Shown here one piece after another: positions 22,140-44,379 of a DNA stretch of 48,602 nucleotides. The stretch lies in IMG/VR virus record IMGVR_UViG_3300031673_000084, positions 1-48,602 of that record. The stretch is one strand, 5' to 3'. The DNA is from a virus. Within the stretch, counting starts at the first letter, position 1; each line of letters opens with the position of its first letter. The position numbers and the translations under genes are program-made. The notes under the pieces were generated by a model. The model was given only the letters and a program-made list of their open reading frames with translations. It had not been told where the DNA came from and searched no databases.

Positions 22140-22898
22140 GTGTTTCGACCCCTGATTATCGTGGTCCGCCAATCCATGCGATGGGATGGCCCCGAGGAAT
22201 TGGCCCGCCAAAACCTCTATGGCAAGCCCGTTGTAAGACTCATTATCAATCCACGGGTCCAAGCCTTTTGGAAGCGGTATTTCCGCCTCCCTTTCCATGA
22301 ATTCCGCCGCCGGGTGCGGGATATAGCCCGCAACAATCTCCAAGCCGTGGCCGGCAGCCGGCTCTTCCTGAGCGTTGCCGCCTTCAACCAAGCCCTCCGG
22401 GCCGGGCAAATCCCCCCCGGTTCCCTGGTGGTTCCCATCGACGACGACGATTGGCTTGCCCCGGACCTGGGAAGCCTCTTGCAGCCCCCGGCCGGGTCCG
22501 GGCTCTTGTGGCAATCCTCCCGGGTTGCCTGCAATCGGCCTGTCCGGGATATCGACAAGGGCAGGCCCCTTTGCCGGACAAATAATAGTGCAATTACCTT
22601 GGGCTATCTTGCGGGGCTTCCTAACCATGATCGGAGCATGGTCCTTGCCTATCACTGGGAGGCCGGCAAACGGCTTGCCGGGAAGCTCGGATACCTCCCG
22701 ATCCCTGGTAGCGTGATTGTGAGGCACCCGGCCAGCATAACCCAACTATCCATGCTGGCCCGTCGATACCTGAACCGCCCCCGGGCCTTCCGCCAATATC
22801 TGCCGACCATCCGGCACCGTTTGCCGATCCCCGAGGGCTTGGAATGGTGCCGTCCTTATTACACCCGCCTCCTTGCCCTCTACCGGGAGGCGGTCTAA
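22140..22898 (+). CDS. glycosyltransferase-like protein
   Basis: 252 residues from GTG 22140, five bases after the preceding stop. The segment PGSLVVPIDDDDWLAPDLGSLL (DDDD 101-104) is the nucleotide-sugar/metal-binding pattern of GT2/GT-A-like enzymes. The preceding FRRRVRDIARNNLQAVAGSRLFLSVAAFNQAL looks like the usual helix before it. The C-terminus is basic and aromatic (QYLPTIRHRLPIPEGLEWCRPYYTRL). It closes the glycan cluster; the acceptor is unknown. Confidence 0.65.
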   Translation: MFRPLIIVVRQSMRWDGPEELARQNLYGKPVVRLIINPRVQAFWKRYFRLPFHEFRRRVRDIARNNLQAVAGSRLFLSVAAFNQALRAGQIPPGSLVVPIDDDDWLAPDLGSLLQPPAGSGLLWQSSRVACNRPVRDIDKGRPLCRTNNSAITLGYLAGLPNHDRSMVLAYHWEAGKRLAGKLGYLPIPGSVIVRHPASITQLSMLARRYLNRPRAFRQYLPTIRHRLPIPEGLEWCRPYYTRLLALYREAV

Positions 22899-23245: not shown

Positions 23246-23273
23246 TTGACACGCCTCGATATCCCGAGATAAT
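23246..23273 (+). promoter_or_regulatory. sigma-70-like promoter of the early operon
   Basis: TTGACA (23246-23251), 16-base spacer, GATAAT (23268-23273). It is by far the best sigma-70 match noticed in the window. It faces the MutS-domain gene, with an untranslated leader of about 135 bases. Confidence 0.7.
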
Positions 23274-23414: not shown

Positions 23415-23957
23415 ATGAAAGCAAAAGAAATCCAAGAGGGCGGAAGGTACGTTGCCAAGGTAAGCAACCGTCTTACCGTGGTTCGCGTCCTCAAGATCGA
23501 AAAGAAATGGAACGGGCTCTTCGGCACCACGGAGCGGGTACAGACCGTCTACCGGGTCAAGAATGAGCGGACCGGGCGGGAAACCACCTTCCGGAGCCCC
23601 AGCAAATTCCGCCGCCCCGCCGGCAAGCCCAAGACGGAGCAACCGGAGGGCAAAGGGCCCGAGGCCATCAAGGCTTTCCTGCAACGGGTCACGGGCTACA
23701 AAGACCCCCTTCTGGAGAAATGGGAGAAAGCCAAGGCACAATTCCCCGAGGCCCTTCTGCTGATTCGGATGGGAGACTTTGCCGAAGCCTTTTTCGACGA
23801 TGCCAAGACGTTTGCCCGGGTTTGCAATTTGTCTATGACACAACGTAGGGACGGCACCCCGTTGTGTGGGGTCCCTTGGCACGCCAAGGAAGCCTATATC
23901 AAGCGACTTGTCGCGGCCGGTATCCGCGTGGCCCTTTGTGAGGAAGTGAAACCGTGA
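23415..23957 (+). CDS. stand-alone MutS domain I protein
   Basis: 180 residues. Residues ~1-70 are a small basic beta domain (GGRYVAKVSNRLTVVRVLKIEKKW...TVYRVKNERTGRETTFRSPSKFR). Residues ~95-180 match MutS domain I: DPLLEKWEKAKAQFPEALLLIRMGDFAEAFFDDAKTFARVCNLSMTQRR, then PLCGVPWHAKEAYIKRLVAAGIRVALCEEV. The mismatch-wedging F-x-E motif is kept as F122-A123-E124. Clamp, connector and ATPase domains are missing. It could bind mismatched, bulged or damaged DNA, or interfere with host MutS. First gene of the operon under the 23246 promoter. Confidence 0.85.
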   Translation: MKAKEIQEGGRYVAKVSNRLTVVRVLKIEKKWNGLFGTTERVQTVYRVKNERTGRETTFRSPSKFRRPAGKPKTEQPEGKGPEAIKAFLQRVTGYKDPLLEKWEKAKAQFPEALLLIRMGDFAEAFFDDAKTFARVCNLSMTQRRDGTPLCGVPWHAKEAYIKRLVAAGIRVALCEEVKP

Positions 23958-23969
23958 CCAATCACCACC

Positions 23970-24003
23970 GGGCCCCGGGGTGAATACCTCGGGGCCCTCT
24001 TTT
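23970..24003 (+). terminator. rho-independent terminator-like hairpin
   Basis: An 11-bp stem with one G.T pair (23970-23980 with 23987-23997), 6-base loop TGAATA, followed by TCTTTT. It lies between the MutS-domain gene and the gene at 24018, so it may only partly attenuate transcription of the rest of the operon. Confidence 0.7.
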
Positions 24004-24017
24004 GAGAGGGATGAATC

Positions 24018-24212
24018 ATGCAAGCCAAGCAAGCCCTGAAGCTCCGGCCCGGGGAACGGGTCTACAATAAGTTCTATCGGCGGGAAATGATTGTTAAGGA
24101 GATTATCCCGGCCGCAACGGATCGGCACCCCATGGGTAATTTCCCCCTAGTGCTGATGGAAGAGGATTCGACTCCTTATACCTACAGGCTTTTAGGGAGG
24201 GTAAAACCATGA
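24018..24212 (+). CDS. hypothetical small protein
   Basis: 64 residues after GAGAGGGATGAATC. Mainly beta (LRPGERVYNKFYRREMIVKEII...PLVLMEEDSTPYTYRLLGRVKP), compatible with an SH3-like barrel. The stop overlaps the next ATG as ATGA. Function unknown. Confidence 0.65.
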   Translation: MQAKQALKLRPGERVYNKFYRREMIVKEIIPAATDRHPMGNFPLVLMEEDSTPYTYRLLGRVKP

Positions 24213-24832
24213 AAACCAAAACCAAGAAACCGGAACCCGTTTCCATCCGTCCCGCCCTCGGGGAATTGGAAAAGCTCTTCAACCTGTTTGCCCCCCTCTT
24301 CCCCGAGCCCTTGACCGCTCCAATTATTACTATCCAGACCCGGGGCCGCAAGAACGCCCTCGGATGGTACAAGCCCCAGACCTGGCAGAATGGGGGCAGA
24401 GACACCCTTCCCGAGCTAAACATTTCCGCCGAAAGTCTGGCCCGGGGTGTCCCGGAGATTGCGGATACGGTCCTGCATGAGATGGTCCACCATTGGAACC
24501 GCTTGCATGGAATCAAGGATTGCTCCGGCAACCAATACCATAGCAAGAAGTTCAAGGCGGGTTGCGACCTGGTTGGGCTGAAATGCGAAAAGATGGAAGG
24601 CCACGGTTGGGCCGCGACAAGCCTTTCCGACAAGCAACGGGCCATAGTCAAGAAGGCCGGCATCAAGGATGAAGCCTTCCACTTGTTCCGCTTGGCGGAC
24701 CATGGAGGCAAGGGGCCCGGGAGCCGGATGAAGAAATGGACCTGCCCTTGCGGGACAATCATCCGGGCCGCCGGGGAAATCTCCGTCCGGTGTAACGAGT
24801 GTGGCGAAGACTTTGAGCGGGACGAAGATTGA
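24209..24832 (+). CDS. SprT-like zinc metalloprotein
   Basis: 207 residues. HEMVHHWN at residues 90-97 gives the HExxH zinc-binding glutamate/histidine motif, and His111 in NQYHSKKFK is the probable third ligand, as in SprT/Spartan domains. The C-terminal part has a zinc ribbon (CPCG...CNECG, ~178-200), also typical of the family. Spartan-type enzymes digest DNA-protein crosslinks; whether this phage protein does so is inference. Overlaps the preceding gene (ATGA). Confidence 0.85.
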   Translation: MKTKTKKPEPVSIRPALGELEKLFNLFAPLFPEPLTAPIITIQTRGRKNALGWYKPQTWQNGGRDTLPELNISAESLARGVPEIADTVLHEMVHHWNRLHGIKDCSGNQYHSKKFKAGCDLVGLKCEKMEGHGWAATSLSDKQRAIVKKAGIKDEAFHLFRLADHGGKGPGSRMKKWTCPCGTIIRAAGEISVRCNECGEDFERDED

Positions 24833-25400: not shown

Positions 25401-25613
25401 ATGGACATAGGACACAAGGTAACCGCCGCCCGCAAGAAGGCCGGCTACAAGAGCCTCTATGCCTTGAGTAAGGCCACCGGGGTTGCCTCCGGGCAACTCT
25501 CCGAGATAGAGGCGGGGAAACACTCCCCAAGCCTGGAGACTTTGGAGCGTATCTTTCACCCTATCGGTTGGGAGGTAGTCGTTACCTTCCGGCCGAAGAA
25601 GAAAAGGAGCTAG
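25401..25613 (+). CDS. XRE-family helix-turn-helix regulator
   Basis: 70-residue single-domain DNA-binding protein after CTAGGAGGATGCA. The HTH is clear: KVTAARKKAGYKSLYALSKATGVASGQLSEIEAGKHSPSLETLERIFHPIGWEVVV, with recognition helix ASGQLSEIEAG. No separate oligomerisation or protease domain. Last gene of the early operon; likely controls the early promoter or lysogeny. Confidence 0.85.
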   Translation: MDIGHKVTAARKKAGYKSLYALSKATGVASGQLSEIEAGKHSPSLETLERIFHPIGWEVVVTFRPKKKRS

Positions 25614-27407: not shown

Positions 27408-27632
27408 ATGCCTACCCCTCAACAAGGATTCGTGATTGACGGGGCTTCCTATTCGGAAGATGTCGCCCGTATGGTCTTGGGGAAACGGGGCCCGATAAGC
27501 CGCCGCACCCTGGACCGCTACATAGAGAAGGGCCTTCGATTTTCTAAGATCGGGGAGCAACGCTGGTTCTCGGGTCTCAATATCCGGCTCTTTATCGAGA
27601 GCTACGGCAGTTTTCATGGGGACGAGCAATGA
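27408..27632 (+). CDS. excisionase-like small DNA-binding protein
   Basis: 74 residues after ATAAGGCTTG. Contains RGPISRRTLDRYIEKGLRFSKIGEQRWFSGLNIRLFIESY, which reads as a MerR/Xis-type winged helix: helix, RTLDRYI recognition helix, wing around KIGEQRWF. It overlaps the integrase ATG (ATGA). By fold and position it is a likely recombination directionality factor. Confidence 0.65.
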   Translation: MPTPQQGFVIDGASYSEDVARMVLGKRGPISRRTLDRYIEKGLRFSKIGEQRWFSGLNIRLFIESYGSFHGDEQ

Positions 27633-28723
27633 AAGTCTATGTCATTCCACGTAAGGGGAAAAAGTATCTGATGCTCCGATGGATCGACCCCAAGACGGGC
27701 AAGCCCCGGGAGCGGTCTTCCAAGACCACCCGCCGCCGGGAGGCGGAGCGGTTAGCCGAAAGGCTTTCCCGGGAGATTGAAGAGGGCTTCCACACCAAGG
27801 CGGTTAGCTGGTCTGTATTCCGCACCCGCTATGAACGGGAACACCTCTCCCAACTGGCGGGAAATACCCTCGGGCAATGGACCACCACCGCTAACCACCT
27901 GGAAGCCCTCGAAAACCCGCAAACGCTGGGGGCGGTTGACTCCGCCATGGTTTCCCGCTTCCAAGCCGGCTTGACCGGCCGGGGTCTCCGTCCCGCTTCC
28001 GTTGCCGCCTACCTCGGGCACCTTCGGGTTGCCCTCCGGTGGGCAAAACGTCTCGGGCTTATCCCGGAGGTCCCGTTCGTTGAAATGCCCAAACGGGCCC
28101 GGGGTGCCTCCAAATTCGCCCGCTCCCGGGCGATTGTCGGAGAGGAATTGGACCGGGTTCTTTGGGCCGCCGAAGCCGAACGCCCCCGGGACTTCAACCG
28201 CTGGCAAGATTTCCTCCGGGGCCTGTATCATTCCGGCTTGCGGGTAGGGGAATTGCTGATTCTATCTTGGCACCCGCAAGCCGCCTTATGGATTGATCCC
28301 TCCGGGGCTTATCCCTTAATCCGTGTTACCACGGAAGGGGAGAAGGCCCACCAGGATCGTTGGCAGCCGGTGACCCCGGAATTCTGGGGTCTGGTCAAGC
28401 ACAAGGCCCCCCGGGGCCGGGTCTTCCCTTTGGACTCTCTGGCAACCGGCAAGCCGCTGCGGATTAAAACCGTGGTTCGGATCATTTCCAGGATCGGCCG
28501 CCGGGCGGGAGTGATAACCGACCCGGCAAGCGGAAAGTGTGCCACTTCCCATGATATCGGTCGCCGGGCCCTCGGGACCCGCCTTGCCTCCCGGTTGACA
28601 CCTCAGGAACACGCCAAATGGATGCGACATGCCTCGATAAATACAACCATGCGATATTATTACCAGCCCGAGGCCATTGCTTTATCCCGAAGAATCTGGG
28701 AGAGCCGATCCCCGGGCTTGTGA
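27629..28723 (+). CDS. int: tyrosine recombinase (phage integrase)
   Basis: 364 residues. N-terminal arm-binding part (MKVYVIPRKGKKYLMLRWIDPKTGKPRERSSKTTRRREAERLAERLSREIEEG), a core-binding helical domain (~70-165) and a C-terminal catalytic domain. Catalytic residues are visible: Arg in YHSGLRVGELL, Lys region near VTTEGEKAHQDRWQPV, HxxR in SHDIGRRALGTR, His in KWMRHASINTT and Tyr in MRYYYQP. It integrates the phage by recombination between attP and host attB; the attP-like tRNA fragment lies 75 bases downstream. The stop codon lies inside the first arm-type repeat. Confidence 0.95.
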   Translation: MKVYVIPRKGKKYLMLRWIDPKTGKPRERSSKTTRRREAERLAERLSREIEEGFHTKAVSWSVFRTRYEREHLSQLAGNTLGQWTTTANHLEALENPQTLGAVDSAMVSRFQAGLTGRGLRPASVAAYLGHLRVALRWAKRLGLIPEVPFVEMPKRARGASKFARSRAIVGEELDRVLWAAEAERPRDFNRWQDFLRGLYHSGLRVGELLILSWHPQAALWIDPSGAYPLIRVTTEGEKAHQDRWQPVTPEFWGLVKHKAPRGRVFPLDSLATGKPLRIKTVVRIISRIGRRAGVITDPASGKCATSHDIGRRALGTRLASRLTPQEHAKWMRHASINTTMRYYYQPEAIALSRRIWESRSPGL

Positions 28724-42087: not shown

Positions 42088-44379
42088 ATGCCGATTAAAG
42101 GACCAACAAAGCTACAACCCTTCCTCTTTCATGGGGTAGAGCTAACCTGGGGCGGAGACCCCCAGGCCCAAGGGGATTGTCCCTTCTGCCTCAAGGAATC
42201 CCATTTCTACGTCAGAAAGCAAACCGGGCAATGGGATTGCAAGTCTTGCGGAAGGAAGGGAAATATCTACAGCTTCCTTACTGAGATTTGGGAAATCTCC
42301 AGGGATGCAAGCTTAGGCTGCAAAGAGGATTATCAAGTCTTGGCAGAAGCCCGAGGCATCCCGGCCGGGGCCCTCAAAACCTGGGGCCTTGCCAAGTCAA
42401 TCATAGGTGGAGATTGGCTAATCCCCGCTTTCAACGCTCAGGGCAAGCTTGCCAACCTCTGCCGGGTGGAGCCTAAGACCTTCCGCCTCCTGTCTACCCC
42501 GGGCTGTACGCTCCATCCCTTCGGCCCGGTTCCCGGCCCCACCAATAAACGCCAGAAAACCCTTTGGGTGTGCGAAGGCCCTTGGGATGGAATGGCCCTC
42601 TGGTCCGCCCTGGCAACCATCAAGGCCCGGGGGAAGCCTCCCAGGTATATCAAGACCACCAACCCCGCCGGCTCCCTGGGAGCCTCCCAGGCCGTCCTTG
42701 CGGTCCCCGGGGCCGGCATCTTCAAGGAAGACTGGCTTGCCCTCTTGGACGGCCGGGACTGCCGCCTTGTTTATGACAACGACCATCCCCGGGCGACTTG
42801 CAAGGGATGCCGCAAGCAATACTCTAAGGCGGAGAAGGCTTGTCCGCATTGCGGGGGCAAGGATCGGGGCCCGAAGGTCTCCCGCCCCGGTTGGGATGGA
42901 ATGGCCCGGGTGGTCAAGCTGGTCTCGGAATCCGGGACCAGGCCCAAGACCCTCCACCGGCTCCGCTGGGGCAAGACCGGGCACGATCTCAACCTAGCGG
43001 ACGGATACGACGTAAGAGACCTGATCCGGGACCGCGGCCCCGTGGGGGCTCTCCGCTTGCTCTCAGAACGATTAGAGCGGGTAAGGTCTTCTGATACCCG
43101 CAAGGGCACCAAGGGCCGGGAGGAAGAGCCCCCGGGCCTGGAACCGCTCCCCAGGGAGACCTTCCGCCAGCTATGCGGGGATTATTCCGAAGCCCTCCAC
43201 TTCGGGCCCCTTATGCGGGACACCCTGGCAACCATGCTCGCCGTGGCCGTATCCACCACCCTCGGGGGCGACCAGCTTTGGCTCAGGGTGATAGGCCCTC
43301 CCGGCTCGGGCAAGACCACCCTTGCCGAAGCCCTCTCTTGTGCCCGGGAGTATATCTTCCCGGTCTCCAGTATCACAGGGCTACACTCCGGGTTTACCGG
43401 TGGAGACCGGGCGGTAAGGCGGAAGGATGCCTCCCTGATTCCCAAGATGGATGGCAAGACAACCATCATTAAGGATGGGGACACCCTCCTAACTGCCCCC
43501 AACCGGGACAAGATACTCGCGGAAATGCGGGACCTGTACGACGGCACTTCGCGGAGCCACTACCGCAACCGGGTGGCCCGGTCCTATGAAGGTCTCCGCA
43601 CCACCTTTATCCTTTGTGCCACCGATGAAATCCGCTCCCTAAACCGTACCTTCCTCGGGGAGCGGTTTCTTGATTGTGAAATCCTTGGGAAGGATGAAGC
43701 TTCCCCGTACCTGGACCGGGCCCTAAGCAATGCCTACGGACATATCCTCGATACCTGGAAGCCTTCCGAAGAGCAGGAAGCCCAAGATGAAGAGACCGCC
43801 CTTTATCTCCACCGGGTAACCTACGGTTATCTCCAGCATTTGAAAGAGGGCTTAACCTCTTTGCCCCCTCCCGATCTTCCTCAGGGAATCGGAACCAAAA
43901 TCAAGGCACTAGGACAAATACTCTCTATGATGCGTGCCCGGGTCAACCGGGAGAAGGGGGAGGCTCTTGCCTACCGCCCCCGGGCGGAGCTAGCAACCCG
44001 CCTGGTGGGGCAGCTTGCCAAGCTGGGGGTCTGCCTGTCAATCGTCCTGAATAAAAAGACGGTCGATAATGAGACCTTCCGCATAATCCGCAAGGTTGCC
44101 CTTGATACCGCTTGCGGGTTTCACTTGGAAATCACGCAACTCTTGATCCGTTACAAGGCCGGACTGTCCGCCAAGCAAATCGGGATGGAGCTAGGGCTAT
44201 CGGAAACCTCAATCCGCCGCAACCTTCTGGATATGGCGGAATTCCAAATCGTCAAGCGGGGTAGTCGCCCTAACCGCTCCGGTGTCCGGGGCCGGGACCT
44301 GCATATCTGGTCCCTGTCCCCCTCTGTCGGCCGGCTTTGGCGGGAGGCAGGACTTGCGACAAGGAAGAAAGAGCAATGA
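42088..44379 (+). CDS. primase-helicase with zinc-interrupted Toprim domain
   Basis: 763 residues. CHC2-like zinc finger CPFC...CKSC (C31, C34, C51, C54); Toprim domain with VCEGPWDG (E163) and VYDND (230-232); a second zinc ribbon CKGC...CPHC (C238, C241, C252, C255) is inserted right after the DND. The ATPase/helicase-like domain has Walker A GPPGSGKTTLAEA (403-415), TIIKDGDTLL as Walker B region and LCATDEIRSLN as sensor 1. The C-terminus is a winged helix (LSAKQIGMELGLSETSIRRNLLDMAEFQIV). It primes and unwinds DNA for the polymerase. Confidence 0.85.
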   Translation: MPIKGPTKLQPFLFHGVELTWGGDPQAQGDCPFCLKESHFYVRKQTGQWDCKSCGRKGNIYSFLTEIWEISRDASLGCKEDYQVLAEARGIPAGALKTWGLAKSIIGGDWLIPAFNAQGKLANLCRVEPKTFRLLSTPGCTLHPFGPVPGPTNKRQKTLWVCEGPWDGMALWSALATIKARGKPPRYIKTTNPAGSLGASQAVLAVPGAGIFKEDWLALLDGRDCRLVYDNDHPRATCKGCRKQYSKAEKACPHCGGKDRGPKVSRPGWDGMARVVKLVSESGTRPKTLHRLRWGKTGHDLNLADGYDVRDLIRDRGPVGALRLLSERLERVRSSDTRKGTKGREEEPPGLEPLPRETFRQLCGDYSEALHFGPLMRDTLATMLAVAVSTTLGGDQLWLRVIGPPGSGKTTLAEALSCAREYIFPVSSITGLHSGFTGGDRAVRRKDASLIPKMDGKTTIIKDGDTLLTAPNRDKILAEMRDLYDGTSRSHYRNRVARSYEGLRTTFILCATDEIRSLNRTFLGERFLDCEILGKDEASPYLDRALSNAYGHILDTWKPSEEQEAQDEETALYLHRVTYGYLQHLKEGLTSLPPPDLPQGIGTKIKALGQILSMMRARVNREKGEALAYRPRAELATRLVGQLAKLGVCLSIVLNKKTVDNETFRIIRKVALDTACGFHLEITQLLIRYKAGLSAKQIGMELGLSETSIRRNLLDMAEFQIVKRGSRPNRSGVRGRDLHIWSLSPSVGRLWREAGLATRKKEQ

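Follow-up and report, generated by a model that had tools for sequence, protein, structure and literature searches.

A phage protein joining a minimal MutS domain I to a basic Tudor/SH3-like barrel, a candidate targeting module for distorted DNA

Domain I of MutS (PF01624), which bacterial MutS shares with MSH6 and MSH3 together with its F-x-E wedge, does not usually hold DNA by itself but within a dimer, jointly with the clamp domains, and takes no part in the dimer interface. In MSH6, a PWWP or Tudor domain in the N-terminal region lies ahead of domain I. Reuse of MutS-I outside MutS is known from the polyvalent proteins of mobile elements, multi-domain proteins of Bacteroidetes and Firmicutes lineages of which approximately 80% carry ArdC-N, and these were described as the only setting of MutS-I outside MutS (Iyer 2017, PMC5512222). 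In a literature search that reached few subscription journals, we found no further paper on stand-alone MutS-I in phages. Annotated small examples exist nonetheless, namely ORF064 of Bacteroides phage B124-14 (81 aa) and the UniProt entries A0A8S5PL02, A0A8S5L9N2 and A0A8S5PPT8 (153 aa), which UniProt names 'MutS domain I' or 'DNA mismatch repair protein'.

Here we describe a 180-aa protein (P0001) encoded in virus record IMGVR_UViG_3300031673_000084, the whole of which (48,602 nt, 48.6 kb) was analysed and is referred to as the window. The record carries genes for terminase, portal, head protease, tape measure and integrase, as well as for DNA polymerase A, a primase/helicase-like protein, a Sak4-like annealing protein, a PD-(D/E)XK exonuclease, UvrD helicase, ThyX and DNA methyltransferases. 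The features discussed below are:

23246..23273, + strand: sigma-70-like promoter match TTGACA-16-GATAAT, 11/12 consensus positions, 141 bases 5' of the start codon
23415..23957, + strand: gene for the two-domain protein P0001, 180 aa, intact ORF
23415..23621, + strand: N-domain, predicted basic Tudor/SH3-like barrel, approximately residues 1-70 (HMM E 9e-29, AlphaFold)
23622..23702, + strand: linker, residues 70-96, with a predicted helix at 82-93 (AlphaFold, pLDDT 67-78 in residues 71-100)
23703..23954, + strand: minimal MutS domain I, residues 97-180, stopping at Pfam model position 87 of 113
23778..23786, + strand: wedge motif Phe122-Ala123-Glu124, E. coli Phe36-Tyr37-Glu38 (phmmer alignment)
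23970..23997, + strand: GC-rich hairpin of 12 pairs, then TCTTTT, 13 bases past the stop; possible terminator or attenuator

The domain I part has about 40-55% identity to bacterial MutS, and the protein differs from MutS in having no connector, core, clamp or ATPase domains. It differs from the polyvalent proteins in its size, its two-domain build, its N-domain and its probable origin in a Planctomycetota phage; neither ArdC-N nor a metallopeptidase or other effector domain was found in it with Pfam or PHROGs. The small phage proteins resemble it in size and in having MutS-I as their sole named domain, but B124-14 ORF064 and other proteins of 74-84 aa are too short to hold a Tudor-like barrel. 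Proteins from Planctomycetota and prophages share its N-domain and carry a HARE-HTH where it has MutS-I. MSH6, with a Tudor-class barrel before domain I, has a similar layout, an analogy that does not imply histone reading. MutS-I outside MutS is thus already known (Iyer 2017), and the window protein is not unique, being one of many phage cases.

The gene had been put forward, from the sequence alone, as a stand-alone MutS mismatch-recognition domain with its wedge intact and with neither clamp nor ATPase. Pfam places MutS_I at residues 98-179 with an E value of 2.4e-21 (76.5 bits against a cut-off of 20.6), the sole domain that Pfam and PHROGs name in the protein, and all of its PDB sequence matches are MutS (E down to 9e-17). 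When four complete MutS proteins were compared with the record by tblastn, the only significant match lay at 23706-23975. MutS_III (core/clamp) and MutS_V (ATPase) found nothing in the record even at E values as high as 1, in searches that did detect positive controls, and MutL (DNA_mis_repair, PF01119) was likewise not found there. The proposal of an isolated domain I without clamp or ATPase therefore stands and, because both are missing, MutS-like repair signalling is impossible for this protein; it cannot initiate repair alone. The phmmer alignment pairs D97/P98 with T11/P12 of E. coli MutS and sets F122 on F36 and E124 on E38, so both wedge residues are indeed retained. The residue between them is Ala, as opposed to Tyr in 49/49 MutS compared. 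A broken mutS fragment was ruled out, since a downstream remnant is absent, the next gene is unrelated and neither MutS_III nor MutS_V matches, and a chance resemblance was ruled out by the Pfam E value and the 1.3 Å structural match described below.

An AlphaFold model of the whole protein, built with a 28-row alignment, had a pLDDT of 90.3 and a pTM of 0.53, and the latter makes the mutual orientation of the two domains unreliable. Residues 96-180 superpose on residues 10-98 of E. coli MutS in complex with a G:T mismatch (1e3m) at 1.3 Å over 85 residues (Z 13.8), and the domain also superposes on domain I of MSH3 and MSH6 (range 1.2-1.4 Å over 82-85 residues). Phe122, which structure prediction might have placed away from any DNA-facing surface, is instead in register with the wedge of mismatch-bound MutS crystal structures. 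Relative to MutS domain I, the window copy is cut short just before the DNA-contacting 95-107 loop and has neither this loop nor the final strand; according to a review of MutS, regions 57-66 and 95-107 are disordered in the absence of DNA. Among small phage MutS-I versions, most likewise stop within approximately 25 residues of the end point of the window copy.

As for the N-domain, of which the HMM finds a single copy in the window, its pI of 11.3 and its model agree with the small basic beta domain of the preliminary description. Modelled alone, it reached a pLDDT of 84, and its best structural match was a Tudor domain (Z 8.8, 1.5 Å over 58 residues); a search with Foldseek alone returned nothing under E 0.001. 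By its predicted structure the domain is likely a Tudor/SH3-like barrel, a fold class from which its function cannot be read. It contains the G-G-x-Y-x-A-K-V-S and N-x-x-T-G-R pattern of its family and is 59-60% identical to a protein from a Planctomycetota MAG. Elsewhere the N-domain occurs alone (L093), on other tails (L092 and L176, the latter with 60% identity to the window copy) or fused to HARE-HTH (L094, L095 and L177-L184), where PF05066 was run on L177 and the other fusions were called by sequence pattern. Identity to these HARE-HTH-fused relatives is 33-44%. The window protein has no HARE-HTH at its C-terminus, where Pfam places MutS_I. Three genomes (G551, G537 and G670) carry an N-domain/HARE-HTH gene at a distance of 3-5 kb from a portal gene resembling the window's. 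A prophage gene family of Planctomycetota, L319-L333, also combines the N-domain with HARE-HTH, some members being near a phage portal.

The two kinds of evidence on host agree. Among the genome records bearing the N-domain, 8/9 are labelled Planctomycetota or subgroups, and the ninth is labelled merely 'bacterium'. The window portal has matches in 43/392 Planctomycetota genomes (best 44% identity, E 5e-93), and about 25-28% identity to named phages. Since both N-domain carriers and portal matches point to this phylum, the host of the phage is probably a planctomycete. Identity between the window MutS-I and MutS from the class to which the planctomycete G001 belongs reaches 54-55%. In a tree resting on 89 columns only, the window copy is nested in a group of non-Bacteroidota MutS with support 97/94, a group that leaves out the phage copies other than L011. 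Two long branches connect the window copy with L011, and all but two sequences in the tree are less diverged (end branch 1.65); its exact sister is therefore uncertain, given the two long branches and the 89 columns. Because it groups with non-Bacteroidota MutS, it was, as judged from sequence, captured separately from and acquired independently of the common Bacteroidota-type gut/rumen phage copies. Searches of viral contigs with P0001, the MutS-I domain, the N-domain and profiles gave no close relative of the whole protein, no match in phages and plasmids covered >80% of the query, and no N-domain/MutS-I fusion was among the matches listed from the 398 genomes in the class of G001.

Scans of viral contigs with subsequent ORF classification yielded 39 distinct small (<300 aa) phage proteins with MutS-I, together with longer non-MutS proteins and pieces of full MutS. 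The longer proteins include fusions of MutS-I to ParB, with ParB_N and HTH_ParB (L114, L133, L156 and L168), proteins of 809-827 aa in which MutS-I is terminal (L003, L004 and L010), and a 1756-aa protein in which it is internal (L011). On the tree, the label 'small phage protein' has to change at least 7 times, so the module has passed repeatedly into and out of larger proteins or MutS. No consistent partner was found among the genes beside stand-alone copies. Small stand-alone versions are thus widespread in phage contigs, with the wedge kept and with varied tethers, which goes beyond the polyvalent-only statement of Iyer 2017.

Across 56 distinct phage MutS-I domains outside MutS, the wedge Phe is present in 55/56 and the Glu in 56/56, a count that is biased because most copies were collected by patterns containing the wedge; in the five copies not fitting these patterns the figures are 4/5 and 5/5. 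The nearby loop (residues 143-149) is relaxed in phage copies while F-x-E is kept, as expected if the wedge is still in use. The wedge is not universal, since L334 (G661) has lost the Phe. Apparent losses in some phage copies (NEFKE, AELKE) were rejected, as alignment showed that the pattern had matched an N-terminal helix.

A strict beta-clamp-type motif, QLSLF/QLDLF, was found outside the domain in 7/39 small proteins (L096, L098, L104, L105, L111, L112 and L115) against 0.2 expected from shuffles. The carriers, some of them near-copies, form one moderately supported group (93/87), with the motif N-terminal in some and C-terminal in others, and they hold a mismatch wedge and a clamp hook within about 140-195 aa. 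Complete MutS proteins of the same set have QLSLF/QLSFF at around residue 825. In a motif scan of the window proteins the MutS-I protein had no such motif, and loose matches occurred in two others (22140-22898 and 42088-44379). Tentatively, phages may have repeatedly cut MutS down to its mismatch-sensing tip and rewired it through a clamp motif, ParB or a Tudor-like barrel, giving ATP-free sensors of mismatches or distortion; we consider this possible rather than probable.

For the window protein, the reading we favour, with a probability of about 0.5, is that of a two-domain DNA-binding adaptor, a targeting module for distorted DNA. The MutS-I part would insert Phe122 into unstacked or kinked DNA, at mismatches, small loops, heteroduplex or single/double-strand junctions, and the basic barrel would strengthen binding to DNA or to a partner protein; both domains might then hold a partner at distorted sites in phage replication/recombination, or shield such sites. 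A targeting role is suggested because MutS-I serves as a targeting part elsewhere, i.e. in the ParB fusions, the long proteins and the clamp-motif group, because the N-domain is otherwise fused to the DNA-binding HARE-HTH, and because the phage encodes polymerase A, primase/helicase-like, Sak4-like, PD-(D/E)XK exonuclease and UvrD proteins. We count against it the missing last strand and 95-107 loop, the Ala in place of Tyr and the high divergence of the domain. Moreover, since domain I otherwise grips DNA with clamps in a dimer, its affinity in isolation may be low.

The protein could alternatively block host mismatch repair or MutS heteroduplex rejection, covering mismatches in phage DNA and keeping host MutS from loading, which would help replication or recombination between diverged phages. 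The resemblance of its MutS-I part to Planctomycetota MutS would fit, as would the finding that 382/398 genomes examined in the class of G001 have a MutS-I match, almost always within a full-length MutS frame, and the Sak4-like annealing protein of the phage. However, a lone domain I would be expected to lose out to clamp-bearing MutS dimers, and since domain I lies outside the dimer interface it is unlikely to poison MutS by forming mixed dimers. We regard such a blocker as unlikely.

Slightly further down we place protection of the genome, in which the protein would shield the genome from host nucleases during entry or replication by binding where it is single-stranded or gapped. This role was proposed for the MutS-I of polyvalent proteins (Iyer 2017, PMC5512222), and an anti-restriction gene lies approximately 2 kb from the stand-alone MutS-I gene in L141. 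The ArdC-like, protease and other polyvalent domains are nevertheless absent from the 180-aa protein by Pfam and PHROGs, and there is no sign of co-delivery with DNA, which leaves this role improbable. Models of defence systems did not match the protein.

Less probable again is a regulatory DNA-binding protein, in which the N-domain gives the function and MutS-I is a generic DNA-bending add-on. Such a role would be consistent with the N-domain/HARE-HTH genes close to portal genes in three genomes and with the unrelated tails on which the N-domain is also found, but an intact wedge would be unexpected in a generic binder. Finally, a decaying relic of a host mutS fragment acquired by accident would explain the divergence, the unusual residues A123, C137 and I117 and the failure to find close relatives, yet it is very improbable in view of the clean ORF with phage-typical GC3 (0.71, compared with 0.72 for polA and 0.69 for the helicase), the precise fusion to a phage N-domain, the confident two-domain model, the kept wedge and the many parallel cases in other phages.

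With respect to transcription, the preliminary description made this the first gene of an early operon, which is doubtful given the promoter-like site upstream and the GC-rich hairpin straight after the stop. Promoter-like sites in the gene region number 4, compared with a mean of 1.0 in shuffles. Terminator-like sites are not in excess (5 vs 4.3), and the hairpin is therefore a weak terminator candidate. Taken together, its own promoter-like site and the hairpin mean that the MutS-I gene could be a single-gene unit, and it may thus form its own transcription unit. Just downstream lies a gene for a SprT-like metallopeptidase (24209-24832; phrog_6361 match E 3e-26, Pfam SprT-like under the cut-off), relatives of which were sought in viral contigs and not found. 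The window also holds a phage integrase family gene (27629-28723) and a small HTH regulator (25401-25613), from which the phage may be temperate.

Should the small stand-alone versions bind mismatches without clamp or ATPase, they would offer a minimal system for studying what domain I does alone, and a possible phage route to control host mismatch repair or recombination. Among bacterial candidates for stand-alone MutS-I, G337 (L299, G337:C1) was rejected because it proved to be a full mutS whose frame shifts immediately past domain I, owing to a genuine defect or to an error in sequencing. A 423-aa planctomycete protein (L301, G107:C174, P0004) carries MutS-I with F-I-E kept, separate from the full MutS of the same genome; its remainder has no significant Pfam family, and only its MutS-I part was matched in 199 genomes of the phylum. 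Lastly, in the planctomycete protein L334 (G661:C517, 1479-2714), a weak MutS-I without the wedge Phe is followed by what appears, by eye, to be a RadC/JAB-like domain.
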